Shown piece after piece: positions 13,496-27,500 of a stretch of DNA of 64,000 nucleotides (the stretch's first letter is position 1; each line of letters begins with the position of its first letter). The position numbers and the translations under genes are program-made. Location: assembly GCF_001897285.1 (NCBI RefSeq), contig NZ_MKSM01000111.1, forward strand, positions 278 through 64,277, in the 5' to 3' direction. The notes below the pieces were generated by a model. That model had not been told where the DNA came from. It saw only the letters and a program-made list of their open reading frames with translations, and searched no databases. Source of the stretch: Nitrobacter sp. 62-23. Lineage in GTDB: Bacteria > Pseudomonadota > Alphaproteobacteria > Rhizobiales > Xanthobacteraceae.

Positions 13496-13585
13496 GGAGA
13501 GGTGGCAGAGTGGTCGAATGCACCGCACTCGAAATGCGGCATAGGTGCAAGCCTATCGGGGGTTCGAATCCCTCCCTCTCCGCCA
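13496..13585 (+). tRNA. tRNA-Ser (CGA)
   Basis: GGAGAGGTGGCAGAGTGGTCGAATGCACCGCACTCGAAATGCGGC...GGTTCGAATCCCTCCCTCTCCGCCA; cloverleaf with long variable arm, anticodon CGA, encoded CCA. Confidence 0.96.
13571..13585 (+). repeat. Putative attL core (15-bp direct repeat with 26325-26339)
   Basis: CCTCCCTCTCCGCCA, identical to 26325-26339; coincides with the tRNA-Ser 3' end. Confidence 0.82.
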
Positions 13586-13743
13586 AAAATAGCACCTAAA
13601 CGATTGTTTTTCTAGATGCTTTTTGAAGGCCGGTCTGGGTCAACCCTACCGTTTATCCGTCCCTCCCAAGGGCTTAGAATCGGCCGCGTAGCAGGCTTTC
13701 AGCCGCGCCGGGCTCGATCCGGCCCGGCTCGCCCACAGGGCCG

Positions 13744-14241
13744 CTACGCGCCGAGAAAGCGGCGGATGAACTCTTTCGGGCGCATCGGGGGCCGCTCCAC
13801 GGTCAGACGGCCTTCGCGGCACACCTCAACCCTTACAGGATCGGTCGCGGCGGAATTGACGTGCAAGTCAAAATCGCGATGTTGCCCCCGCACCGACAGC
13901 GAAAAGCCCGGCCGATCGTCTCTATTGCGGACGGTCAGGCGGCCAGTTGAATCCCGAAAGCGCGCTGTCATCACGCCGCCGCGAAGGCTGGCGCTCTCGA
14001 AACGCCATGCCCCAAACCGGCGACGCCCGAGCCAACTCAGAACCGAATAAGAAGGAACACACCCCGACGCCGTGCGGCGGGAACGGAGCGCGGCGAGCGC
14101 GCCAGCGAAATCGCGGAATCGAACTGTCTGATCCATATGGTTAACTCCTGTTTCAGCCCGTCCAAGGCGATCTAGCCACGGGCTGAAACAGGAGTCAAGT
14201 ATTTGATTTTGCTTACTTATTTTCGAAAACAGGTAACCCAA
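13744..14241 (-). CDS. Hypothetical protein of the element (likely start near 14136, MDQTVRFRDF...)
   Basis: Open minus frame, last gene of the element; no recognised family. Confidence 0.45.
   Translation of the reverse strand: MGYLFSKISKQNQILDSCFSPWLDRLGRAETGVNHMDQTVRFRDFAGALAALRSRRTASGCVPSYSVLSWLGRRRFGAWRFESASLRGGVMTARFRDSTGRLTVRNRDDRPGFSLSVRGQHRDFDLHVNSAATDPVRVEVCREGRLTVERPPMRPKEFIRRFLGA
14144..14195. repeat. 18-bp perfect inverted repeat (14144-14161 / 14178-14195)
   Basis: ACTCCTGTTTCAGCCCGT ... ACGGGCTGAAACAGGAGT with a 16-nt spacer. Confidence 0.9.
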
Positions 14242-14266
14242 AATCGAAAACAGGTCGCACGGCCCT

Positions 14267-14599
14267 TCAGTTCAAGGGCCTAATGTAGTCGGCAAACTCG
14301 GCTCGCAACGCGTCATCGCCAAAACGATGCAGCAACGCGCCAGCAGCCTCCCGGCTTACCACGGGCAGAACCTCCAAACCTTGTTCGAGGCCCGCGCGTT
14401 TCACGCGCTTAACGGTCAAAAAGCCGATTCCAGATTCTGCTTTCTCATCAGGCCAGAGCGCCAACACGAGGGCGCACGACGCGAAGCTACGCTCGAAAAA
14501 ACCGGGGTCGCGCTTGGCCAAATGGCTGATGGCCGCAGCCCCATTTGTCAGAGCGCGCATCAACATTGCAAAGCTCAAAACTTCAATGCTCTCGCTCAT
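14267..14599 (-). CDS. Hypothetical phage-element protein
   Basis: 110-aa ORF directly downstream of the tape-measure gene, same strand. Confidence 0.55.
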   Translation of the reverse strand: MSESIEVLSFAMLMRALTNGAAAISHLAKRDPGFFERSFASCALVLALWPDEKAESGIGFLTVKRVKRAGLEQGLEVLPVVSREAAGALLHRFGDDALRAEFADYIRPLN

Positions 14600-14602
14600 G
14601 AT

Positions 14603-16786
14603 TCACGCTCCCTTCCAAGACGGAGCCCTGCCCGTGCTGATGATTTGAGACCTTGTGGCAAATTTCTGCAATTCAATGACTGCATCGGGCGTCGCCGTAA
14701 GGCCTTCTATGATTTTATTACCCGGCAGGTGTATCTGAACGGGATGCCCGCTCGCGCCCGACCCGACCGCCGGGACCGACACGAGACCGCCATTTCGGAA
14801 ACCGGTCATCGGAGGTGTGAGCGCAGACGCGATGCCGCCGCCGACGCCCGCGAAGCTCGCGAGAAGATCGCGCGGGATTCGCATACTCTGCAAAGCGCGC
14901 ATGATACCGACACCATAATAAGACACGGCCTTGAAGGGCTGCACAAACTCGCCGTTCGAGAGCCGTGCAGGAATCGAGTCGCTCGTTCCGGTGCCCGCTC
15001 CACGGACGTAGCCGCCGCTGGCAAAGCCGGGCGCACCATCGCCGCCGCCGACTACCGAAGCAATCGCGCTTGCCGCGCTCTGCGCTTTCGCGACGACGCT
15101 CGCGATAAGATCAATCAGGCCGCTGAAATAGCCCTTCACGGTAGCGACAGCAGAATTGAATTGATCGACGACCCAATCGGCTGCGGCGCTCACGCCGTCT
15201 CTTACGGCCTGCCACGCTCCATTTGCAGCGTCCACGAGACCGCTAAACAGTGAGCTAACAAAATCAAGCGCACCACTAAACGCGTCGCTGATGGCCTGCC
15301 CGACTGCCGACGCCGCTTCCGATAGCGAGCCCATCCGAATCGCAGACGAGACGATAAAGGCCCCTATCGCGACTCCCAACGCTGCGGCTCCAATCGTCGC
15401 AGCCCCGAAGATAGAGATAAGTCCGCCGAACACTGTGACGACGGTTGAGATAGACGACGCTAGCAGCGTAAACGATCCGACGAGTTTCGCGATGACGAGC
15501 GCCGCCGCAATCTCAGTCCCGGTCAAATTCGTGCCGAAAATCGTGTTGATGCCTGTAGCGACCGTGTTGAACACTGACATCAAAGCACTGAGCGCCGGGA
15601 TGATGATATTAGTGACGGCGTTCGAAACAGCGGTGCCGAAAGCCACGACCGACTCTCGCGCGCCGCGAAGCATGTCAGATTTCACATCCGCGTCACGGCC
15701 TTCGAGCACCGCGACCAAATCGTCAATGACAGGCTTCACCTTCGCCGTAATGTCCGCCACGAATAGAACAAGCGCCGTGCGATTCTTGGCGATGAATTCC
15801 GTGAGGCCGTTCAAACTCTGCGACACCAAGGGCGCGAGCGTCGCGGCGATCGAGTCCTTCGCGGATGTTGCGGCTGCGCCGAGTCGGGCGAACGCTGTTG
15901 AGACCGCGAGCAGATTCTTGCGCCCAAGTTGATCCAGCGGCGGCGCGATCCGTTGCGCCTCCAAAGTGAACGCCGCGATGCCGCGCGAACCTTGATTCAT
16001 AAAGCTAACGAGCGAACTACTCTTCGTCCCAAACAACTCCATGGAAAGCGCGGCCTTCGTCGCGCCGTCCGGCAACTCGCGAAAGGCGTCTGCCAAACCC
16101 TCAAATGCTTGCTTCGGATTCTTCAGACTGCCGTCAAAATTGCGCGTGGAAACACCGAGTCGCGTAAATGCGTCCTGCGAATCCGACGCGTTCTGATTCA
16201 ACTTCTGCATTGACGTGCTAAATTGCTGGAAATTTATCTGTCCGCTGGCAAGCTGACGCTTCAAGTCGCGAACGCTGTTATTATACTGCTCATTTCTTTT
16301 CACTGACTCGTCGAGCGCGCGGCTTACGCCGGTTATCGACTTGGCGAAGTCATCACCGGACACGCCCGCTTGTGCTGCCGCATTCTTCAGATTCTCATAT
16401 TCCTTTGCCGAGAGTCCCGCCGCGTCGGCCGCATCTTGGATATTCTTTTGGTTTTGTGCCGATCCCTTCACGAAAGCCGCGACGCCAACTCCGACAGCCG
16501 AAAAGGCGGCGGCCACGGCGGTGACCTTCACGGCCACGTCGCTGAGCGTTGATTTTAAGTTGCTGAACACCTCACGGCCTTTATCGATTTCGGCCCGGAC
16601 TTGTTGCGCTTTTTCCTGCACGGACTTCAGGGAAACGCCGAGCTTGTCCAGAGTCGAATTCGCACTCGCCGCGCGCTCCAAATCTTCGAACGCCTTCTTC
16701 CCGGATGATCCGATGTCTTGAAGCTGCTTCTTAATATCCACTCCACCGGCTAGGGAGATTCGGACTGTAAATGATTTACCAGCCAT
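14603..16786 (-). CDS. Phage tail tape-measure protein
   Basis: Long coiled-coil/Ala-rich protein (DAADAAGLSAKEYENLKNAAAQAGVSGDDFAKSITGVSRALDE..., hydrophobic central segments, FASGGYVRGAGTGTSDSIPARLSNGEFVQ C-terminal motif typical of tape-measure proteins). Confidence 0.88.
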   Translation of the reverse strand: MAGKSFTVRISLAGGVDIKKQLQDIGSSGKKAFEDLERAASANSTLDKLGVSLKSVQEKAQQVRAEIDKGREVFSNLKSTLSDVAVKVTAVAAAFSAVGVGVAAFVKGSAQNQKNIQDAADAAGLSAKEYENLKNAAAQAGVSGDDFAKSITGVSRALDESVKRNEQYNNSVRDLKRQLASGQINFQQFSTSMQKLNQNASDSQDAFTRLGVSTRNFDGSLKNPKQAFEGLADAFRELPDGATKAALSMELFGTKSSSLVSFMNQGSRGIAAFTLEAQRIAPPLDQLGRKNLLAVSTAFARLGAAATSAKDSIAATLAPLVSQSLNGLTEFIAKNRTALVLFVADITAKVKPVIDDLVAVLEGRDADVKSDMLRGARESVVAFGTAVSNAVTNIIIPALSALMSVFNTVATGINTIFGTNLTGTEIAAALVIAKLVGSFTLLASSISTVVTVFGGLISIFGAATIGAAALGVAIGAFIVSSAIRMGSLSEAASAVGQAISDAFSGALDFVSSLFSGLVDAANGAWQAVRDGVSAAADWVVDQFNSAVATVKGYFSGLIDLIASVVAKAQSAASAIASVVGGGDGAPGFASGGYVRGAGTGTSDSIPARLSNGEFVQPFKAVSYYGVGIMRALQSMRIPRDLLASFAGVGGGIASALTPPMTGFRNGGLVSVPAVGSGASGHPVQIHLPGNKIIEGLTATPDAVIELQKFATRSQIISTGRAPSWKGA

Positions 16787-17039
16787 GATTGCTTGCCTCC
16801 AATAAATTTGATTCCCACGGGCCATGACTCACGACAGCCGCGAGCACATCAGGCTCGTCGGGATTCCACCACGCGCGAAATACGATTTGCCCGTCCGCTT
16901 CAATCCGCAGCCAGCTTGCTCCAGCGTGATAATCGGGATCGATGCCAGCGGTGATAAGCAACTCGCCACGGCGCGCGGACGGGAGGTCCGCGCATCGTAA
17001 GATATAAAGTGCTGCATCGCGGATTTTCGAAGCGGTCAT
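16776..17039 (-). CDS. Hypothetical protein, overlaps the upstream RHH gene stop (ATGA)
   Basis: MTASKIRDAALYILRCADLPSARRGELLITAGIDPDYHAGASWLRIEADGQIVFRAWWN... Confidence 0.55.
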   Translation of the reverse strand: MTASKIRDAALYILRCADLPSARRGELLITAGIDPDYHAGASWLRIEADGQIVFRAWWNPDEPDVLAAVVSHGPWESNLLEASNHGW

Positions 17040-17206
17040 AACACAGCCTCCTCTCGCTCAAGGCCGCGAGCGACGAGGCGGCGAAGAACGATGGCGCGGG
17101 GCGTGCCATAAATCGCGAGGGCATCAACGCGGGAAAGCATCGCGCCGGGTAGACGGACGCTCACCTTCTCCGTGAGGGGCGCACGACGTTTCAGATTCCG
17201 TTTCAA
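17036..17206 (-). CDS. Small ribbon-helix-helix-like protein (TTG start; not in the ORF track)
   Basis: Translation (M)KRNLKRRAPLTEKVSVRLPGAMLSRVDALAIYGTPRAIVLRRLVARGLEREEAVL*; RHH-like strand-helix-helix pattern; TGA overlaps the next ATG. Confidence 0.6.
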   Translation of the reverse strand: MKRNLKRRAPLTEKVSVRLPGAMLSRVDALAIYGTPRAIVLRRLVARGLEREEAVL

Positions 17207-17684
17207 AGCCGATCTCCATTTTGGATGGAGTATCGGCGGTCAGACGCGCGGCGTCAGCCAACGAATTGTCGGACAACGGCGGACAAATCAAAAGGGCCAG
17301 CGGTGTGATGCGCTGACCCTTTCTGAGGAAGTTAATGGCGCGGGACGTTTCGACGCCATCAACCGATCAAATGATAGCACTCTCAGACTCGAGCGCAAAC
17401 GCACGGAGAAAAATATTTTCAGCCGCTTTACCTACCTCCGTGAAAAATTTTTATCATAGCTGCGAAGAGTCCGACCCCGTGTCTTGCCCGCATTACTTTT
17501 TGGCCCGGAAGGACCCGAAAATTTTTGGGAGGACTCAGGCGTGGGCTTCGAAGAGAATGTTCTTCTCTCTTTATCTCAACTCGAAAATTTTCAGCGTCGT
17601 GCGGATATCGAGATAGATGCACTTGCATGTAAATAGGTGGCGACACGGGCGCTTGCGGGAAATGGGGGCGCACCAAGGGTGAGG

Positions 17685-17873
17685 GTAGAGTCGTAGAGGG
17701 GTAGACCCCTGCCGCCATATTCCCCCCCCCCCCGGATTGCATGAGCTACACAGCCCTAAATACCCCCCCCCTTTATAGTATATGACTCTACGACTCTACC
17801 AATGAAGGAAACAACTGTGCTGCAAGGGTTTCTGCGGTAAAGTCGGCGGTAGAGGCTGACTCTACGCCTCTAC
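17685..17873. repeat. Octamer array GTAGAG(T/G)(C/G): candidate iterons or operator of the element
   Basis: Tandem octamers at 17685-17708 (x3, +), 17784-17799 (x2, -), 17849-17856 (+), 17858-17873 (x2, -); two poly-C tracts (17722-17733 and 17763-17771) between them. Confidence 0.8.
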
Positions 17874-19531
17874 CCTTGTGTGCTTTTTACAAACCCCGCT
17901 CGATTCTGCCCGAAAATTTTTACCTGACGGCGGTGCTCCCACCCCATCGACTCCATCGTGGTGCGCAATCGCTGCGCCTGCCCCGTTGACCTCTGAGCTT
18001 TGGGTATATCGAGAGCATTCATCAAATCATCCGCATGAACCCGATCGGGCGGCGGCGGTTCGTCGTCGTCTTCATCCTCTGATAGGTCGAAGTTGCTATT
18101 GTAACGTACGTGGTCGCGCTCTCGCTGCTCAAGAAAATCAGCGATGGTATCTTCCCATGGGTTATCCGCCGTCTCATTCTTTTGAAGCTCAGCGGCTACC
18201 GACCACAACGATTCCGGCAACGTAAGAGGCTCGCGGCGCTCTTCTAGCACTGACGCCTCTGCCCACAATTGGTCCCGATCGCGCGCCAGCTTTGACACGT
18301 CGATAGCTGTGCGCAGTTCGAGAGGCCAGAAGCGACGGCCGCCGGTCGCGTCCTTAAGATATCCGGACTCGTTGACCGTGGCGGCACACACGCTGCGACG
18401 CGGGACTTCACTCAGCATTCGGTCGTACGGGTCGCGCTGACGGTCCACCGCCCGACTCAGGAAGGCTTTCAAGGTATCAGCGTCGGCGCGGGTCAATGAT
18501 CCGATCTCCGCGAACTCTTGGAGCCAAATACCCCGGAGCTTCATCGCGGCGTCCTTGTCGCGAAGGTTGCCCAAATCAGCGTCCGAAAACCACTCATCCC
18601 CAAACAGGACGCGCAATGCCGTCGATTTGTAATAGCCTTGCGGTCCCTTCAGGACGGGCATCGTATCGAACTTGCAGCCCGGCCGCCGTTGGCGACGCAC
18701 GGCCCCAACCATGAAGCAGCGGGAGACCGCGCGCGTGTATTCGGAATCATCGCATTCGAAATAATTGGAGAACAACCCATCGACGCGCGCCACGCCATCC
18801 CACTTCAGCCCGTCAAGGTACTCGATAATGGGATTAAACTTGTTCTGGTAGGCGAGCGTCTTTATCACCTCACCTAGGTGGTGGATATCGGGCGTGTATG
18901 CTGCGGCCTTGTATTGCTCATGCATGTACTTCCGTGTGAGCCGCATTACTTTGTCGTCAAGCACGCGGCCGAAATCGTCCGGCCAAGGCAGAGACTCAGT
19001 GCGGAACTCATAGTTCTGTTTCAACTCGTTCCATGCAGGCTTGAGGTCCGCCTTCAACACCGCGTATTCCGCGTTAGCATATGTGTCGGGCGCAACGTTC
19101 GTCTTCCGGTTCATCTTGAATCCGCGCGCAATGATAAGCTCGGTGGATTCATCGCTGCCTTCCATCCAGTCGTCGGATTCGTCATCGTCCGGCAGTGGTT
19201 CGGGCAACGGCGCGCGCGAGTTGCGGCCGGGAACGTTACCTTTATCAGATTTGGAGGCGTAAGCGCGATAGACGATATCGATGACGGCAGTGCGCGAGAC
19301 CTTTGGTGAGCCGTACTCGCAAATAATATTAGCGGCCGACTCTGGCGTTACGCCCCAATCGAAGAAGTCTTGGGCTGTGTTCCATAGCAGCCGCAACCCT
19401 TCTTCGGTCTTCCGATATAGCGACGCGTTCTTGATGCAGCGTTGCTTTGCGTCCTCAAGATCGATTTGATTATCCCATCCTCGGCGCGGTGCTGGTATAT
19501 TTGTTGGTTGAGCAATACTATTATCAGTCAT
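17870..19531 (-). CDS. Virulence-associated E (VapE)-family helicase/primase
   Basis: VLKGPQGYYKSTALRVLFGDEWFSDADLGNLRDKDAAMKLRGIWLQEFAEI...DRMLSEVPRRSVCAATVNESGYLKDATGGRRFWPLEL. Confidence 0.93.
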   Translation of the reverse strand: MTDNSIAQPTNIPAPRRGWDNQIDLEDAKQRCIKNASLYRKTEEGLRLLWNTAQDFFDWGVTPESAANIICEYGSPKVSRTAVIDIVYRAYASKSDKGNVPGRNSRAPLPEPLPDDDESDDWMEGSDESTELIIARGFKMNRKTNVAPDTYANAEYAVLKADLKPAWNELKQNYEFRTESLPWPDDFGRVLDDKVMRLTRKYMHEQYKAAAYTPDIHHLGEVIKTLAYQNKFNPIIEYLDGLKWDGVARVDGLFSNYFECDDSEYTRAVSRCFMVGAVRRQRRPGCKFDTMPVLKGPQGYYKSTALRVLFGDEWFSDADLGNLRDKDAAMKLRGIWLQEFAEIGSLTRADADTLKAFLSRAVDRQRDPYDRMLSEVPRRSVCAATVNESGYLKDATGGRRFWPLELRTAIDVSKLARDRDQLWAEASVLEERREPLTLPESLWSVAAELQKNETADNPWEDTIADFLEQRERDHVRYNSNFDLSEDEDDDEPPPPDRVHADDLMNALDIPKAQRSTGQAQRLRTTMESMGWEHRRQVKIFGQNRAGFVKSTQG

Positions 19532-19584
19532 AATTCCGTTCCGGACGGTTTGCCTCACTGTCCTTTTCTTCGACTGTCTCCTTG

Positions 19585-19623
19585 AACCCGCCGGGCTTCA
19601 CTGCTCGGCGGGTTTTTCTTTTG
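19585..19623 (+). terminator. Plus-strand intrinsic terminator-like hairpin
   Basis: aaCCCGCCGggcttcactgctCGGCGGGTTTTTCTTTT; the U-tract follows only in the + direction. Confidence 0.65.
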
Positions 19624-19628
19624 TCGCG

Positions 19629-20210
19629 TCATCCGAAGTCATCAACCGGCGCTTGTTCATATTCGATGCTGTACATAATGTAGCCGTCGTCGCGTTGCCA
19701 TATGGTTGCATTAAGAATTGAATCCGGCGGCGTCGGCGGGATGCGCTTACGCTCATCAGCGTCGCTGCATTCGCGGATCACGTTGCGTAGAGCGTTGCGC
19801 AACGTGCCGCGATCTTCGTGAATCGGCGTGGGCGCGCGTGGCGGTTGCTCTCTCAACTTTGGGAAATCACCGCCCATAGTCCAACGGCGGATATCGTCGC
19901 GATGAAGCCAGAGTGTTTGCCCTGTCCGCAATACTCGAAAACCGAGACCAAATGGTGTGCGACATTGACTGACAAGTTCGTCGTCATCCCACTCTTGGGC
20001 GGTAAACGGGTCGTCCGATTCGCCCATTGTGCGACCGAAGTATTCGATGGCGTTGGGCGGAAACTTGATGATTTTCGCGCCATGATCGAAAGAGGCGCAC
20101 ACAGGGCCACCTTGCCCCTTGCGCTTCGGTCGGAAAAGGCAAAAGTCCATGGACGCTGCACGTTTAGTCATGCGCGAGAGCATAGACGGCACGGTGTGCG
20201 TTGGTGTCAT
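19629..20210 (-). CDS. Hypothetical protein of the element
   Basis: Minus frame with start MTPTHTVPSMLSRMTKRAASMDFCLFRPKRKGQGG...; no recognised family. Confidence 0.55.
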   Translation of the reverse strand: MTPTHTVPSMLSRMTKRAASMDFCLFRPKRKGQGGPVCASFDHGAKIIKFPPNAIEYFGRTMGESDDPFTAQEWDDDELVSQCRTPFGLGFRVLRTGQTLWLHRDDIRRWTMGGDFPKLREQPPRAPTPIHEDRGTLRNALRNVIRECSDADERKRIPPTPPDSILNATIWQRDDGYIMYSIEYEQAPVDDFG

Positions 20211-20235
20211 CTTTATGGGCACGTTTCGTCTCCTT

Positions 20236-20646
20236 CTAAATTTGCTCCAAGCCGGGAAACTCCCATCCGTCTTCCTCATCAAGCCACGCGCGAAAAGCCG
20301 AGCGACGTATTTTGTACTTATCTCCGGATGAGAGGTTGAAGTAGATGGCGTCCACCATGATTTTAACGGAAACATCATCACTCAAAGGCATGGGCAAGGC
20401 TTCGGCCCAATCTACAGCCATCGGGTCGCCCTCTTTCAATGTGCTAAACGCGTATCTGTAGAGAAAACCTCTAGCGAGCGTGATTCGAATCTTGCCGTAA
20501 TTCAGAACTACACAAAAATCGGCATCTTCAGCCCGAAACGTGTATACGTCGAGATTGCGTGCCTTTAGCAAACAACCTTCGACCGTCAGAATCTTGTCTC
20601 CGTTGTCTTTACTCATCTGACTCGCCTCGAAAATATCAATTGCCAA
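20236..20646 (-). CDS. Hypothetical protein of the element
   Basis: MSKDNGDKILTVEGCLLKARNLDVYTFRAEDADFCVVLNYGKIRITLARG...; no recognised family. Confidence 0.6.
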   Translation of the reverse strand: MAIDIFEASQMSKDNGDKILTVEGCLLKARNLDVYTFRAEDADFCVVLNYGKIRITLARGFLYRYAFSTLKEGDPMAVDWAEALPMPLSDDVSVKIMVDAIYFNLSSGDKYKIRRSAFRAWLDEEDGWEFPGLEQI

Positions 20647-20713
20647 CTGCCGTCCGGTCGCCGCCAGTACGTTCGGACAACGCCGTAACGATCCTCAACT
20701 CGTTTGAATCGTT

Positions 20714-20956
20714 TCACTTGCCACGGCGGCGCTTCGCTCGCGTTGTGCGGCCGTCCACGCGCGTCCGATAGAAATGCTGAACCGCGCGAGAGTCCCACAC
20801 AAGGCGGCCGAGAAATTTGCCTAGCGGTTTCGGGAATGTCTTCCAGTGAATGTGCGCGTAAACCGTGGGCAGCGCGACGCCGCCGATAGCAGCGATGTTC
20901 TCTGCAATGATTCCGTTTTTGGGAAATTTCATTTTTGACTCCAACGTTTCAATCAA
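20714..20956 (-). CDS. Small AlpA/HTH-like DNA-binding protein (paralogue 3)
   Basis: MKFPKNGIIAENIAAIGGVALPTVYAHIHWKTFPKPLGKFLGRLVWDSRAVQHFYRTRV; HTH followed by a FPKP..LVWD..AV wing as in AlpA/HTH_17 proteins. Confidence 0.6.
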   Translation of the reverse strand: MIETLESKMKFPKNGIIAENIAAIGGVALPTVYAHIHWKTFPKPLGKFLGRLVWDSRAVQHFYRTRVDGRTTRAKRRRGK

Positions 20957-21249
20957 TACTCCCAGTATCGGTTTGTTATTTTCGTTTCTAAACCAACGAA
21001 ACGATCAAGCTCCGCACGCAGCCAGCGCGGCTCCATGCCGATCATTATTGGTTTGGGGAATTTCGGATCGCGGCGCACGGCGCGGATGGAGCGCAGGCCC
21101 AAATGCGCGGCGGCCTCATGGGCGTCGGCCGTCTGGCACATGACAGCGTGGAACAAAGCCGCGCGACTGGCGGAATCGACATATGCGGAATCGGCGGTCA
21201 CGTCGATCGTGCCACCGATTCCGTGATCTATGTTGAAGAGCAACCGCAC
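20953..21249 (-). CDS. Small AlpA/HTH-like DNA-binding protein (paralogue 2)
   Basis: TADAHEAAAHLGLRSIRAVRRDPKFPKPIMIGMEPRWLRAELDRFV; HTH plus FPKPI...RW wing; start overlaps neighbours. Confidence 0.6.
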   Translation of the reverse strand: MRLLFNIDHGIGGTIDVTADSAYVDSASRAALFHAVMCQTADAHEAAAHLGLRSIRAVRRDPKFPKPIMIGMEPRWLRAELDRFVGLETKITNRYWEY

Positions 21250-21252
21250 CGA

Positions 21253-21432
21253 TCAACCCTCGGGCGGCGGCCAATTACGCTCAAACCAGTGCGCTACCGC
21301 TTTTTTGTCCCAAATATTATCTCTGTAGATCGGTGCCGGGAAACTCTTACTGTTTACAATTTGGCGAGTCCTTTCGAGCGAAAGGTTCATCCGGAGACTG
21401 ATCTGGAAAAGGCTAATCGTACTATACGCCAT
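21253..21432 (-). CDS. Small AlpA/HTH-like DNA-binding protein (paralogue 1)
   Basis: MAYSTISLFQISLRMNLSLERTRQIVNSKSFPAPIYRDNIWDKKAVAHWFERNWPPPEG; start overlaps the clpP-like stop by 11 nt. Confidence 0.6.
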   Translation of the reverse strand: MAYSTISLFQISLRMNLSLERTRQIVNSKSFPAPIYRDNIWDKKAVAHWFERNWPPPEG

Positions 21433-21958
21433 GGCCCCAAACCTTCGCCGCGATGTCATCGAACGAGCGCGGCTTGAAGTCCACCGCCATCTTGCGCAGG
21501 GCAAGCGGCGTGTTCAAGAATCTGGAGGTGTTGACGCGCGCCGCCATCTTGCGCGGTTCTTCAACCCGATCCGCGAAGCCCATATCGACCGCTTCTTGAG
21601 CGGAGAGCCACGTCTCGCGGGACATCATCGTAAGCACGTCGTCCATCGGTTGACCGGACCGCGCAACATATGTTTCCGCGATTGTGTCACGCATCTTCGC
21701 GAGCGCTTCACCGAAGGAAATCAATGTCTCGGAGTCGCCGTTGACCGCCCCCCACGGGTTATGAATCATGAGCATCGAATTCGAAGGCATCACAATCTCG
21801 TCGCCCGCCATCGCGATGACCGAAGCCATGGAAGCAGCAAGGCCATCAACCGTCACGATTTTCTTCGCCGGGTGCCGATCCAGCATATTGTATAGGGCGA
21901 AGCCTGAAGGGATATCGCCGCCAGCGGATGCGCGCATTGAAAACCACGACTTAGCCAT
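21422..21958 (-). CDS. ClpP-like (S14) phage prohead protease with shortened N-terminus
   Basis: SAGGDIPSGFALYNMLDRHPAKKIVTVDGLAASMASVIAMAGDEIVMPSNSMLMIHNPWG retains the ClpP nucleophile (ASMAS) and histidine (IHNPWG) regions. Confidence 0.87.
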   Translation of the reverse strand: MAKSWFSMRASAGGDIPSGFALYNMLDRHPAKKIVTVDGLAASMASVIAMAGDEIVMPSNSMLMIHNPWGAVNGDSETLISFGEALAKMRDTIAETYVARSGQPMDDVLTMMSRETWLSAQEAVDMGFADRVEEPRKMAARVNTSRFLNTPLALRKMAVDFKPRSFDDIAAKVWGHGV

Positions 21959-22117
21959 GATGAAAAACCTTTCATGGAGAGAATGGGCCGGTCCCGCTTG
22001 GGGCTGAACGGGACCGGCGGCACCGCCGATGACTTCGGTTAGGAGAATCGGCGGCGCAGCACGCGGCGGGCAGAAAGGTCTTTTCGGAAACCCGCCCCAC
22101 CGCCGCGCGATCTCGGG

Positions 22118-23185
22118 TTAGGCTGACGGCGCTTCCGCGATCACGCCACGACAAAGCGTCTGCGGACGCAAGCACAGCGGCAGCGGTGCTGATTCCACAA
22201 GAATGCTGACGCTTCTGCCGTGGTTGTTGTCATCCTGAACGCTCGCATAACGCGGAAGACCAATCGTGTTGGCTTGCGGTATGAAATCAGCGGGCGCGTA
22301 GTATTCCACATAGAGACCCGGAACCCCGCTTAGGAAGAAACGGCATTCGTCCGGTGCGATGATGACGGTCGAATTGTCGTCGGTCCCTTGGTAATTCTCC
22401 CAAAAGACGCCCCCGTACTCAAAAATATCAAACGTATAATTTCCGCCGAGCGCGGCTTGCGCTGCCCCGTAACCGTCATACGTGCTGCGGACGGATGGGT
22501 GCTCCAGCAACTTGTCGAAAAAGTTGTCACCGCAGAAGGCCCAAATCTTTGCGTTCGCCGGGATGTTGGTTTTCGCCTGACGCTTCATATAGCGCTTGAC
22601 GGCTTGGCACTGAATCCGGATTGCATTGCCCACGCCGACAGCGCCGTAATTATCGAGCGAGAACTCGAATTCTTCGGCCGCTGCGATGCCATCCGAATTC
22701 AGGAATCCGAACTCTGAAAACAAGTCGCAAAGAGTCGAACCGTCCGCATCCTTAATGACGCCGCGAAGTGCACCAAGCCTGTGATGCTCCAACGTCAGGT
22801 CAAGACGGAGGTTCATCTTCTCCATCTGCTTGTTGATGACGCTATCCGCGCTTTCCAACTCATTCGAACCGAACGCTCGAACATTCTGAATTGAGTCGGC
22901 AAAGATAGAATCTGTCAGTTGGATGAAGGGAATATCCAGCTTCAGCATTGATCGCTTGTCTTTGGTTTCCACCGGTGCGGGTGCACCGCGAAGCGAAGTC
23001 GGAATGAGCTTCAGGCCCTCCGGCAGCGACTCGATTGTAACTGAAGTTGTCGCGACGCCTTCGCCCACACCTTCAAAGGCGAGCGTTCCCGCACGGCCTG
23101 GAACCCAGTCCAATTCATTGATCGCCGCAGTTGTCTGAACGACATCGAAAACGTCAGATGAGAATGCATCAACCATGTTAGCCAT
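22118..23185 (-). CDS. Phage major capsid protein, lambda gpE-like family
   Basis: C-terminal SVSILVESAPLPLCLRPQTLCRGVIAEAP and central ALRGVIKDADGSTLCDLFSEFG match the capsid-E family pattern. Confidence 0.88.
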   Translation of the reverse strand: MANMVDAFSSDVFDVVQTTAAINELDWVPGRAGTLAFEGVGEGVATTSVTIESLPEGLKLIPTSLRGAPAPVETKDKRSMLKLDIPFIQLTDSIFADSIQNVRAFGSNELESADSVINKQMEKMNLRLDLTLEHHRLGALRGVIKDADGSTLCDLFSEFGFLNSDGIAAAEEFEFSLDNYGAVGVGNAIRIQCQAVKRYMKRQAKTNIPANAKIWAFCGDNFFDKLLEHPSVRSTYDGYGAAQAALGGNYTFDIFEYGGVFWENYQGTDDNSTVIIAPDECRFFLSGVPGLYVEYYAPADFIPQANTIGLPRYASVQDDNNHGRSVSILVESAPLPLCLRPQTLCRGVIAEAPSA

Positions 23186-23221
23186 AAGAAAGACTCCAAA
23201 ATTTTTGGGTTGTGAAAATGT

Positions 23222-24154
23222 CTAAGCGGTCCGCATCGAGAGAACCGCAAGAACAGAAATATCGGGACGATGAAATGCAGTGCCGCCATCGGCTATGACG
23301 GCTTCAACGGCTGCTGCTTCGATGCGCTCGGCCTCGTCGATGTCAGCGGCAAGCGCTGCAATACGCTTGGCGCGTTGACCAATGGAGAGCGTTCCGGCTA
23401 CATCGGCATAGCTGTCAATGAGCCCATCCAGCTTTTCAATAAGCTCTTTTTTGAACATGAAAGCGAGCAACGCCGCCGCATCTATTTGCAGGTTGTAGTT
23501 CGCGCCCACTTTCGCCGGGTTTTGGATTTTAGGCCAGTCAATGCCGCCGCCCGCGAACATCTGCTGGACCATCGGCACGCCCCGCGCCGCAAGGCGATTA
23601 ATCTGGCGTCGCGCGACTTCCTTCACGTCAATAGCATGAAGCGGCTCGTTTTCCGCTGATCGCTTCGCGGCCTTCGCTAGACGGACATTTTCGCGGAATC
23701 TCGGCAACGCGTCAGCGATATCCCGCTCTCCATCGATCAAGATGACTTTCGGCCGTGCGCACTCCTCCAGAATCGAAGACGCTAGGCGGTCCAATTCTGA
23801 AAGGATGCGAGATGCGGTCAGACATGCAGGCGGCACTTCGGCTTCCATCTTCGCGATTTGCGAGTCGAAGCGATCGATTTCAGCATTACACCCGTCAACC
23901 ATCCGCCGAAACTCTTTATCGGCGTCGCGCTCGGGCGCACTGTTGTTCAGCTTCTGCTTGTGGCTGCCTTTCCGCTTAAACACAGCGTTGGCGAGGAGAC
24001 GGTCACGGAGGCGAACTACGTGCATCCGATCTTGTCGAAGCTCTTGGCTTTCTTTGAGTCGGGAGCGGCTTCGCACAAGCCGTTCCGCATCTTGAATCTG
24101 ATGGCGAGTAATGATCGCCTGCGCTTCGGCGGGTAGCGATGTAATATCGAACAT
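23222..24154 (-). CDS. Hypothetical coiled-coil protein of the element
   Basis: 310-aa ORF upstream of the capsid gene, rich in charged helical segments; no recognised family. Confidence 0.6.
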   Translation of the reverse strand: MFDITSLPAEAQAIITRHQIQDAERLVRSRSRLKESQELRQDRMHVVRLRDRLLANAVFKRKGSHKQKLNNSAPERDADKEFRRMVDGCNAEIDRFDSQIAKMEAEVPPACLTASRILSELDRLASSILEECARPKVILIDGERDIADALPRFRENVRLAKAAKRSAENEPLHAIDVKEVARRQINRLAARGVPMVQQMFAGGGIDWPKIQNPAKVGANYNLQIDAAALLAFMFKKELIEKLDGLIDSYADVAGTLSIGQRAKRIAALAADIDEAERIEAAAVEAVIADGGTAFHRPDISVLAVLSMRTA

Positions 24155-24229
24155 GCTAAAATCTTCGCTCTGTAAAAATGATGCTGCGAAGATAACGGCC
24201 GCACGCGCGAGAAGTCACGTGACCAATTC

Positions 24230-24619
24230 TTACGGTAAGAATTTCGTTCGATGATACCCGCGTCGCTGATGATGCCCCATTTCTTCAAGGGCTATCGTCA
24301 CGCCTTGACGATTGCGCTTTTCAAGGTAGCTGGCGACGATGTGTGGACTCACGCCAGCGGCGGCACATGCGGCGGATAGCGTCGCCGTGGAATAGGACAT
24401 GCCTGCGGGCGTCGCTTTCTCGATATCGCGAACGGCGCGAGCGATGCGTCTGTCATTGTCGGAAGGTCCGCGCTTCGGAATTCTGCGAAGAACAGCGCGA
24501 GTCTGCTCGTGGAATTCGAGAGGAACGGATTCGAGAATCAAGGCAAGGAGCAGCGATGCGTCGCCATTCTTTTCCGCCGCAAACGCCGTACGCCAATCAC
24601 TGTCGGTTGAATCGCCCAT
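24230..24619 (-). CDS. Hypothetical protein of the element
   Basis: MGDSTDSDWRTAFAAEKNGDASLLLALILESVPLEFHEQTRAVLRRIPKRGPSDNDRRIARAVRDIE..., with an HTH-like C-terminal part. Confidence 0.55.
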   Translation of the reverse strand: MGDSTDSDWRTAFAAEKNGDASLLLALILESVPLEFHEQTRAVLRRIPKRGPSDNDRRIARAVRDIEKATPAGMSYSTATLSAACAAAGVSPHIVASYLEKRNRQGVTIALEEMGHHQRRGYHRTKFLP

Positions 24620-24636
24620 TGTATGGTACGAAACAA

Positions 24637-24822
24637 TCAGTGAGAGGCGCGAGCAACGAACGCGGCCAGTTCACCGCCGCTGAACAGGGTGCGAGTGCCG
24701 ATGTGGAAAGGGATCAGCTTGCCTTGTTTGATAAGCGCGTAAATGGTGACTCGCGACACGCGCAAGTGGGCGGCAGCTTCAGGGACGGTAAACACACGGT
24801 CGGAGAATTCAATGTCGGACAT
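24637..24822 (-). CDS. Excisionase/AlpA-family helix-turn-helix protein
   Basis: FTVPEAAAHLRVSRVTIYALIKQGKLIPFHIGTRTLFSGGELAAFVA is a typical excisionase-family HTH_17. Confidence 0.92.
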   Translation of the reverse strand: MSDIEFSDRVFTVPEAAAHLRVSRVTIYALIKQGKLIPFHIGTRTLFSGGELAAFVARASH

Positions 24823-24867
24823 AGCGGGCGCTCCAAATAAATGAACGCCCGCTAATGTTCACATGCG

Positions 24868-26097
24868 TCAGGCCGCCTCAACCAACGAAGCGAGGTTACC
24901 GGTCTCACCATTCAAGAATCTGCACCAAGCCTCCAAAAGCTTCCGGCGCTTGGCGAGCGCATCACCACGGCGATAGGCGGCTTCGGCCTTGTCACCCTTG
25001 ACGTGCGCCAAACAAAACTCGCGAGCTTCTTCCGAGAAGGAAGAGCAATCGCCGCACCAGTCCGAGAACGCGCTACGGAATCCATGAACCGTGATTCCGG
25101 GATGTATTCCGCGAAGCGCTTGCAGCATTGCCATGCCCGAAAGTGGTTTTCCTTTGCGAGCGCCGGGAAAGACGAAGTCGCACGGCCTCACTTTTGGCGG
25201 TCGCACCAAGTTCAGAATCTCAAGCGCCCGATCCGAGAGCGGTACACGATGTTCGCGAGCCGCCTTCATGCGAAAGGCAGGCAATGTCCAGAGCTTTTGT
25301 GCGAAGTCAATCTCTGCCCACGTCGCACCTATGGTTTCGCCAGTGCGAGCCACGTTCAAGATTGTAAATTCGAGCGCGAGCGTAGAGACGCTTTTCAGCT
25401 TCCGCAAATCGATCATGAACGCGGGCATCTTAGGATAGGCTAATGCGGCGTGGTGAGCCTTCGGCCCTTTCCGCTTGCCTAGAAGCTCCTTCAAGTGACC
25501 TTTCCATCGCGCCGGGTTATCGCCGGTACGCAAACCCTTGGCGCGCGCGGCGTCAAGGATTCGCTCTATACGCCCCTGCGTCCGCTTGCCGGTCTCTGGC
25601 GTCTTCTCCCATAGGGGCTCTAGCACCCGAAGCACGTCTTCAGTCGTGATAGTGTCCAGACGCAACGGCCGAAGCGACGCGGCGTGAGTCTCGATCGATA
25701 ATTTCCACTGGCCCTTGTGGGTTTCGGACTTAAAGCCGCCGGAAACGTTGGTGACGTAGGCGTCCGCGAACGGGCCGAACGTCTCAGTCGTGGCGGCAGC
25801 CCGCGCCGTGCGCTTTTCCGTGAGCGGGTCTAGGCCGTTCCAAAGCATCCGGCGCGCTTCTGCCGCCTTTGCCCGAGCGTCTGCAATGCTCACGCCGTGC
25901 TTATCTGGACCGGGCGCAGGCCCGAGTCCCATTTCCTTCTTTCGCTGAGTCTGGCGATCACGGTAGATGAAAACCCAATTCCGCATACGGCCGTCGATTG
26001 CGAGAAAGAGCCCGCCGCCATCAGCGTGGCGGGCCTTGCGTGTGAGGGTTAATATGCTTTTGGCGGAAAGCCGGTTGATGAGACGAGTCTGCGTCAT
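24868..26097 (-). CDS. Tyrosine-type site-specific integrase (P4-like)
   Basis: KARHADGGGLFLAIDGRMRNWVFIYRDRQTQRKKEMGLG..., TGETIGATWAEIDFAQKLWTLPAFRMKAAREHRVPLSDRA, VHGFRSAFSDWCGD. Confidence 0.96.
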   Translation of the reverse strand: MTQTRLINRLSAKSILTLTRKARHADGGGLFLAIDGRMRNWVFIYRDRQTQRKKEMGLGPAPGPDKHGVSIADARAKAAEARRMLWNGLDPLTEKRTARAAATTETFGPFADAYVTNVSGGFKSETHKGQWKLSIETHAASLRPLRLDTITTEDVLRVLEPLWEKTPETGKRTQGRIERILDAARAKGLRTGDNPARWKGHLKELLGKRKGPKAHHAALAYPKMPAFMIDLRKLKSVSTLALEFTILNVARTGETIGATWAEIDFAQKLWTLPAFRMKAAREHRVPLSDRALEILNLVRPPKVRPCDFVFPGARKGKPLSGMAMLQALRGIHPGITVHGFRSAFSDWCGDCSSFSEEAREFCLAHVKGDKAEAAYRRGDALAKRRKLLEAWCRFLNGETGNLASLVEAA

Positions 26098-26324
26098 ATG
26101 GGGCTCCAAACAATCGGAGATTCGAACCCGGCCGAATCTGCTGTTGAACCCGCTGCGTCGGATTCGCCCTCTCGTAAACCCGACCATCTTTTGGCACAGC
26201 AAACGAATTTAGGCGAACTGTCGTGAACAACGTTGAACACTGCGATGCGAGGAAAGCCTTGCGGCGCAGTCGTTTCTTTACGTCAAACCACAACAGAAAA
26301 CAGCAGCGAAGAGGGCTGCCGTCG

Positions 26325-26339
26325 CCTCCCTCTCCGCCA
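26325..26339 (+). repeat. Putative attR core
   Basis: CCTCCCTCTCCGCCA, exact copy of the tRNA-Ser 3' terminus (13571-13585). Confidence 0.82.
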
Positions 26340-27160: not shown

Positions 27161-27299
27161 AATCGGCCTGTCGCCGATGCCCCTTGCGCGAACGATCTCG
27201 CCATGAACTCAGACCGCCGCTCGAATGGATTTTTATCTCTCGTCGAACAGATCGATTAGGCGGCTCGCGAAGGGAGGTTCCGGCTCATCGGGTTAGAGT

Positions 27300-27500
27300 T
27301 TAAGCGGCCTGCAGTCGATGCAGCAAGCGGCGGTTGGCGATATTGGCAAGCTTGATACGTTTGCGTTCGGCGAGGATCGTCTCAGATCTACCGAAGTAAA
27401 CGTCGGCAGGTGTAACGTTGTCGATGCTCTCGTGGCAGCGGACGTGATAGCAGCGCCCGACGAAGGCGCCGATCTGCGAGGACGCCAGGGCAATTATCGT
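27300..27500 (-). pseudogene. IS3-family transposase (integrase core) C-terminal remnant
   Basis: QIGAFVGRCYHVRCHESIDNVTPADVYFGRSETILAERKRIKLANIANRRLLHRLQAA* is typical of IS3-group OrfB ends; rest of gene absent. Confidence 0.8.

Follow-up and report, generated by a model that had tools for sequence, protein, structure and literature searches.

A likely phage satellite of Nitrobacter with its own capsid and tape-measure genes, and its relatives across the Hyphomicrobiales

The genome of Nitrobacter sp. 62-23 contains a block of approximately 12.75 kb that is bounded by a tRNA-Ser gene and a 15-bp direct copy of the end of that gene. The initial annotation of the window (the whole stretch of 64,000 nucleotides analysed here) recognised genes for a phage shell and a tape-measure protein (TMP) in this block, but none for a packaging motor. 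This raised the question whether the block is a phage satellite or a heavily reduced prophage. Our analysis favours the satellite: no large terminase (TerL) or portal gene was found in related elements that share its marker gene, and full prophages with related capsids are devoid of the marker. We therefore consider the block likely to be a phage satellite in its integrated state, one that provides its own shell and tail ruler and borrows the motor, the portal and the rest, and to belong to a family whose architecture we did not find described in the open literature.

ARAGORN and a search for exact repeats placed the boundaries of the block where they had first been drawn, with all of its genes on the minus strand.

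13496..13585, plus strand: tRNA-Ser(CGA), the integration target (ARAGORN)
13571..13585: attachment repeat copy 1, the 3' end of tRNA-Ser (exact 15-bp repeat)
26325..26339: attachment repeat copy 2, beside the integrase gene (exact 15-bp repeat)

The 15-mer CCTCCCTCTCCGCCA, found at 13571-13585 and again at 26325-26339 just outside the integrase gene, was the only long exact repeat of the tRNA-Ser 3' end between window positions 14000 and 40000. This repeat is unlikely to have arisen by chance, since we estimate the expected recurrence of a given 15-mer within 26 kb on two strands at about 5e-5. At 15 bp it is short compared to the repeats of 45-48 bp in five relatives. The GC content of the block is 56.6%, as compared to 61.3% in the flanks, and with our choice of genes coding sequence makes up about 89% of its length, in line with the dense coding noted at the outset.

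An empty integration site was not found within the genus, as the matches lay mostly in a dispersed repeat and the fetched loci contained no tRNA gene. A dispersed repeat of ~220 bp is located at window positions 27254-27477, just outside the element. One genome of the same genus (G061) has over 30 copies similar to it and others have several, and it is probably a small non-autonomous mobile repeat. Elsewhere in the genome of Nitrobacter sp. 62-23, two stretches (G000:C141:38075-38108 and G000:C115:36904-36939) resemble the 3' end of tRNA-Ser; they may belong to other tRNA genes or be old copies of an att site.

Searches against Pfam and PHROGs agreed with the gene content that had been read from the sequence, namely an integrase, an excisionase-type HTH protein, a gpE capsid, a ClpP-like protease, VapE, a ribbon-helix-helix (RHH) protein and a TMP.

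24868..26202, minus strand: tyrosine integrase, 444 aa (Pfam, PHROGs)
24637..24822, minus strand: HTH_17 excisionase/AlpA-like regulator (Pfam 1e-13)
24230..24619, minus strand: ORF129, no family assigned (Pfam and PHROGs negative)
23222..24154, minus strand: ORF310, the family marker (homologues in at least 16 other elements)
22118..23185, minus strand: major capsid protein of the gpE family, full length (PF03864, Phage_cap_E, 7e-75)
21422..21958, minus strand: ClpP-type head protease, 178 aa (PHROG head maturation protease; Pfam CLP_protease 1e-29)
21253..21432, minus strand: small HTH protein (PHROGs 0.011-0.18)
20953..21249, minus strand: small HTH-like protein (weak PHROG HTH/excisionase matches)
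20714..20956, minus strand: small HTH-like ORF (from sequence only; no PHROGs family)
20236..20646, minus strand: ORF136, no family assigned (PHROGs negative)
19629..20381, minus strand: ORF of at most 250 aa, no family, overlapping ORF136, start unsure (Pfam and PHROGs negative)
17870..19558, minus strand: VapE-type primase/helicase-like replication protein (PF05272 1e-71; PHROG DNA helicase 5e-90)
17036..17206, minus strand: CopG/RHH-like repressor (PHROG 4738, 1.5e-6)
16776..17039, minus strand: ORF87, no family, overlapping the TMP start (PHROGs negative)
14603..16786, minus strand: TMP, 727 aa (PHROG tail tape measure 6e-33; best PHROG tail family 4e-33)
14267..14599, minus strand: ORF110, no family assigned (Pfam and PHROGs negative)
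13744..14241, minus strand: ORF165, no family assigned (PHROGs negative)

The integrase matches Arm-DNA-bind_3 (8e-15) and Phage_int_M (4e-18) in Pfam, and its blastp family is common to 15 of 17 elements. Relatives of the HTH_17 protein occupy the equivalent place in two related elements (L069 and L098), ORF129 has a weak counterpart upstream of ORF310 in the element L033 (blastp E 0.001), and the protein encoded at 21253..21432 very weakly resembles the HTH of the TerS of satellite L142 (blastp E 0.04). The capsid protein is 56% identical to that of satellite L033 and 53% identical to that of phage L005. The TMP frame is open to 16825, but homology to phage TMPs begins at 16786, so that this position is most likely the start, giving a predicted protein of 727 aa that is collinear with the 754-aa TMP of the Bradyrhizobium prophage L083. 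Its length is close to the 685-755 aa of most sister siphophages (L006, with 1084 aa, is the exception). A shorter TMP as a rule for satellites was not supported, the satellite proteins measuring 711-909 aa and those of a few phages from the same group 615-798 aa.

No ORF examined matched a TerL, portal, connector, tail-tube or lysis family in Pfam or PHROGs, which upholds the absence of these genes reported initially, and the small ORFs gave no match to a tail assembly chaperone (TAC) or a baseplate hub in the same collections. The unassigned ORFs had been named as places where a terminase or portal fold might hide. We rejected this, as the HMM searches of Pfam and PHROGs were negative, all of these ORFs encode at most 310 aa and the product of ORF310 was modelled as all-helical. 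The element is thus not a complete prophage. As expected of a satellite, it is integrated between att repeats, has an integrase and VapE, and carries a partial set of virion genes from which TerL and portal are missing.

ORF310 itself had no meaningful match in Pfam, PHROGs or the records of named phages. Its AlphaFold2 model (built from seven sequences; mean pLDDT 76, pTM 0.43) combines a long N-terminal coiled-coil hairpin with a conserved C-terminal helical part, and found no structural match in the PDB or in the viral structures of BFVD. In several members of the family ORF310 lies directly upstream of the capsid gene. This position, together with the helical and elongated form of the model, suggests a role in capsid formation, and we propose that ORF310 is a factor for shell assembly or for setting shell size. 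As it is also present in elements without a capsid gene, its action there would be on the shell of the helper.

Searches with ORF310 and with ORF310 profiles, also among relatives of the capsid drawn from collections of genomes and viruses, revealed at least 16 further elements marked by an ORF310 homologue, distributed over many genera of the Hyphomicrobiales. The marker search yielded L063-L067 (all in one genome), L068, L069 (the second element in the genome of L033), L070, L075 and L076. Those found among capsid relatives were L082 of Bradyrhizobium liaoningense, L094 of Agrobacterium genomosp. 13, L098 of Aminobacter sp. AP02, L100 of Aliihoeflea and L102 of Shinella granuli DSM 18401. 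One more, L142, lies on an isolate-derived contig of IMG/VR, where all ORF310 matches were to contigs of this kind. In a phylum-wide sample, 6 of 399 genomes had ORF310 matches, two of them outside the Hyphomicrobiales. The gene order of the window element recurs in L033, where an integrase, an HTH protein, a small ORF, the ORF310 homologue and the capsid are followed by a replication gene. The seven best-delimited elements, the present one (12.77 kb) included, span 12.5-14.9 kb between tRNA repeats; the other six are as follows.

L070: 12.5 kb, tRNA-Met repeat of 45-48 bp
L065: about 13.9 kb, tRNA-Ser repeat of 15 bp
L063: 14.5 kb, tRNA-Val repeat of 45-48 bp
L094: 14.5 kb, tRNA-Phe repeat of 45-48 bp
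L067: 14.8 kb, tRNA-Asn repeat of 45-48 bp
L066: 14.9 kb, tRNA-Val repeat of 45-48 bp

In addition, L100 has a candidate 19-bp repeat at tRNA-Pro. The five related satellites L063-L067 reside at different sites in genome G479. A tRNA gene (Val, Ser, Val, Asn) was within the stretch read for four of them, a gpE capsid was detected in none, and no GpA-type terminase was found in this genome. L033 and L082 share the same flanking chromosomal genes in two hosts (L033 12659-15088, L082 4147-8375), with no tRNA detected; judged by eye, the neighbours are a response-regulator-like and an ECF-sigma-like gene. A match to a homing-endonuclease repeat was seen once, in a relative only.

The members differ in the virion genes that they carry, and either the capsid or the TMP is missing from some ORF310-positive loci. 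TMPs, from two PHROG groups, are present in 10 elements, and PHROGs identified TerS in five. The richest member is L094, which encodes ORF310, two TACs (PF10109), a TMP, an S49 protease-scaffold, a capsid, a baseplate-hub-like protein (PHROG 52, 3e-58) and TerS. L142 has a capsid, TerS, a chaperone and a TMP, and L063, L064 and L066 have a TMP, TerS and a short scaffold-like protein without a capsid. Only a C-terminal remnant of the TMP is left in L033, so that this protein is not essential in every member.

HMMs for TerL and portal found neither in the ORF310 loci, and both were absent from every locus that combines a capsid with ORF310, mostly over 10 kb on each side. The same HMMs do detect their targets in 89 gpE-phage loci. 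Conversely, ORF310 occurred in none of these 89, each of which has a capsid, TerL and portal; not all loci of the set are independent. For 85 further ORFs of ORF310 elements, no terminase or portal was among the 25 Pfam families listed out of 29, the other four having E values above 3e-4, and none was among the PHROGs listed for these elements. Within the bacterial family of Nitrobacter, gpE capsids were found in 24 of 250 sampled genomes. The loci examined at the 20-kb scale had TerL and/or portal matches, except for the window element and L033 and for one short contig that could not be judged, and none of the gpE prophages had ORF310. Three other loci (L152, L166 and L175) combine a capsid with no detected TerL or portal, and their long runs of ORFs look phage-like.

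These results bear directly on the view that the block is a decaying prophage, i.e. a siphophage such as L083 or L005 that has lost its terminase, its portal and most tail genes. In favour of such an origin, the capsid, the ClpP and the TMP all have their homologues within one siphophage clade, ClpP is internally deleted, and the genome has no helper bearing a GpA-type TerL. However, the gene order is not that of a phage, as the capsid gene precedes the protease gene and the TMP gene lies beyond the replication gene, and capsid, TMP and VapE are full-length. Moreover, many genera contain ORF310 and the same architecture, combined with capsids that go back to at least five origins, and ORF310 was not found in full gpE-phage loci. 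The prophage L083 of Bradyrhizobium sp. Ec3.3, a gpE siphophage with 46% (capsid), 55% (ClpP) and 28% (TMP) identity to the window element, illustrates the difference: it has TerL, portal, ClpP, decoration and further downstream genes, and prophages of this type exceed 50 kb, as opposed to the 12.5-14.9 kb of the delimited ORF310 elements. A reduced prophage is therefore an improbable explanation of the block, and unlikely for the family as a whole. Nor is the block a unique deletion of a full-length prophage, which would have refuted the initial proposal.

The history of the capsids also argues for a satellite family. In a capsid tree of 92 rows, built by a quick method with the separations forced by starred branches, the eight ORF310-associated capsids occupy at least five separate places, which requires at least five changes. 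Elements of this one type must thus have acquired or exchanged shells several times. The capsids of the window element, L033 and L082 group together in one clade (96*), the neighbours of which are the siphophages L005 and L105 and the prophage L083. L033 and L069, which share a genome (G229), have replication proteins that are 92% identical (L033 6400-8277 and L069 13362-15248) despite different shell regions, suggesting recent exchange between co-resident satellites. Simple Nei-Gojobori counts on copies within one genome gave dN/dS values of 0.12-0.15 for TMP, 0.07-0.35 for TerS and 0.19-0.44 for ORF310; they concern related elements and not the window copy, and point to maintained function under purifying selection in these relatives. 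There is, in our judgement, about an even chance that these elements form an ancient satellite lineage of the Hyphomicrobiales, defined by ORF310 as a new fold with a proposed function in capsid assembly or size, that has repeatedly swapped in the shell and ruler genes of the phages it parasitises and never the motor or portal. With such a composition, its particles would be hybrid at both head and tail.

The shortening of ClpP had been taken as a sign of decay. For the window copy that suspicion was justified: the gene has an in-frame internal gap of ~58 codons relative to its closest relative, a 59%-identical copy in L069, and also lacks a C-terminal part present in phage homologues, although its Ser and His motifs are, by eye, still there. 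The window copy may therefore be decaying or inert. A special case of the satellite reading is that the block is an immobile relic of a real satellite family, which lost an essential function with ClpP and persists passively. The absence of close copies in its genus and the retention of only the TMP tail end in a related element would fit this. On the other hand, all other recognisable ORFs are intact, and L033 and L082 have a capsid and no recognised protease, so that the helper may provide this enzyme or the element may do without it. We regard an immobile relic as possible, though doubtful.

As had been noted, capsid plus TMP without TerL and portal fits neither of the textbook satellite plans. 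P4-like satellites and canonical PICIs hijack the capsid of their helper, and some SaPIs carry TerS. The window element resembles them in being integrated and small and in having its own replication protein, and some of its relatives have TerS as well, but it differs by its capsid and TMP genes. cfPICIs encode capsid, protease, portal, connectors, TerL, TerS and HNH (PMC10690885). The likeness to these lies in an integrated satellite with its own major capsid protein (PF03864, 7e-75) and borrowed tail parts. However, neither the window element nor the relatives examined have TerL or portal, Pfam and PHROGs detected no connector or HNH family in the window, and the unrelated marker ORF310 sets the family apart. 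The window element is thus not a cfPICI. With respect to the tail, putative tmp genes are indicated in other putative satellites, cfPICIs included, in one figure legend (PMC12987554, Extended Data Fig. 10), and in Vibrio cholerae, PLE satellites equipped with genes for a TAC, a TMP and a hub produce chimeric tails (PMC12987554). PLE11 puts its own TMP, TAC and hub into ICP1 tails, transduction fell by about 99.9% when its tmp was deleted, and the capsid protein in its virions is that of phage ICP1 (PMC12987554). The full-length TMP of the window element is comparable, as judged from genes, and the trio of TMP, TAC and hub recurs in L094, and TAC in L142. The differences are that the window element has its own gpE capsid gene, and that TAC and hub were not found in this copy.

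Partial sets of virion genes are also known in gene-transfer agents and in islands that interfere with phage assembly. A domesticated structure of either kind, rather than a transmissible satellite, could be imagined, especially since a TMP encoded by the element could compete with phage tails. We judge this very unlikely: gene-transfer agents retain TerL, portal and tail genes, and the integrase and att repeats, the replication gene, the patchy distribution and the five copies at different sites in one genome are those of a mobile element.

For the satellite that we favour, the following course of events can be envisaged. The satellite would integrate at tRNA-Ser, and its VapE-type protein would probably drive its replication in a cell with an active gpE-capsid siphophage. 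Both the gpE shell, for which ORF310 would act as an assembly or size factor specific to the satellite, and the TMP would be the satellite's own, and a helper would supply portal, TerL, connectors, tail tube and tail tip. The product would be a small-headed particle with a tail built around the satellite's own ruler. Helper dependence, chimeric tail, ORF310 function, small head and present mobility of this copy are all inferred. Weighing against this reading are the shortness of the att repeat, the failure to find an empty site in the genus, the ClpP deletion, the TMP remnant of L033, the ORF310-positive loci with no capsid or no TMP, and the restriction of IMG/VR matches to isolate-derived contigs, which leaves no virome record of ORF310. 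The genome of Nitrobacter sp. 62-23 contains no GpA-type terminase. Accordingly, the helper probably either does not reside in this genome or uses another type of terminase, and an infecting helper or one of such a type would be needed.

Previously described satellites either take the capsid of their helper or, in the case of cfPICIs, bring a whole head plus motor. A shell that comes without portal and motor, and together with a ruler, would require the portals and terminases of a helper to function with shells foreign to them, and would thereby put the specificity of head assembly to the test. The manipulation of tails by satellites, shown in 2026 for the Vibrio PLEs, would extend to another class of bacteria, where the tail-gene set of the ORF310 family looks independently assembled. 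ORF310 can be used to look for satellites that may escape tools based on markers of P4, PICIs, cfPICIs and PLEs. Altogether, soil-type alphaproteobacteria probably harbour a family of such similar elements, which are likely to be parasites of viruses.
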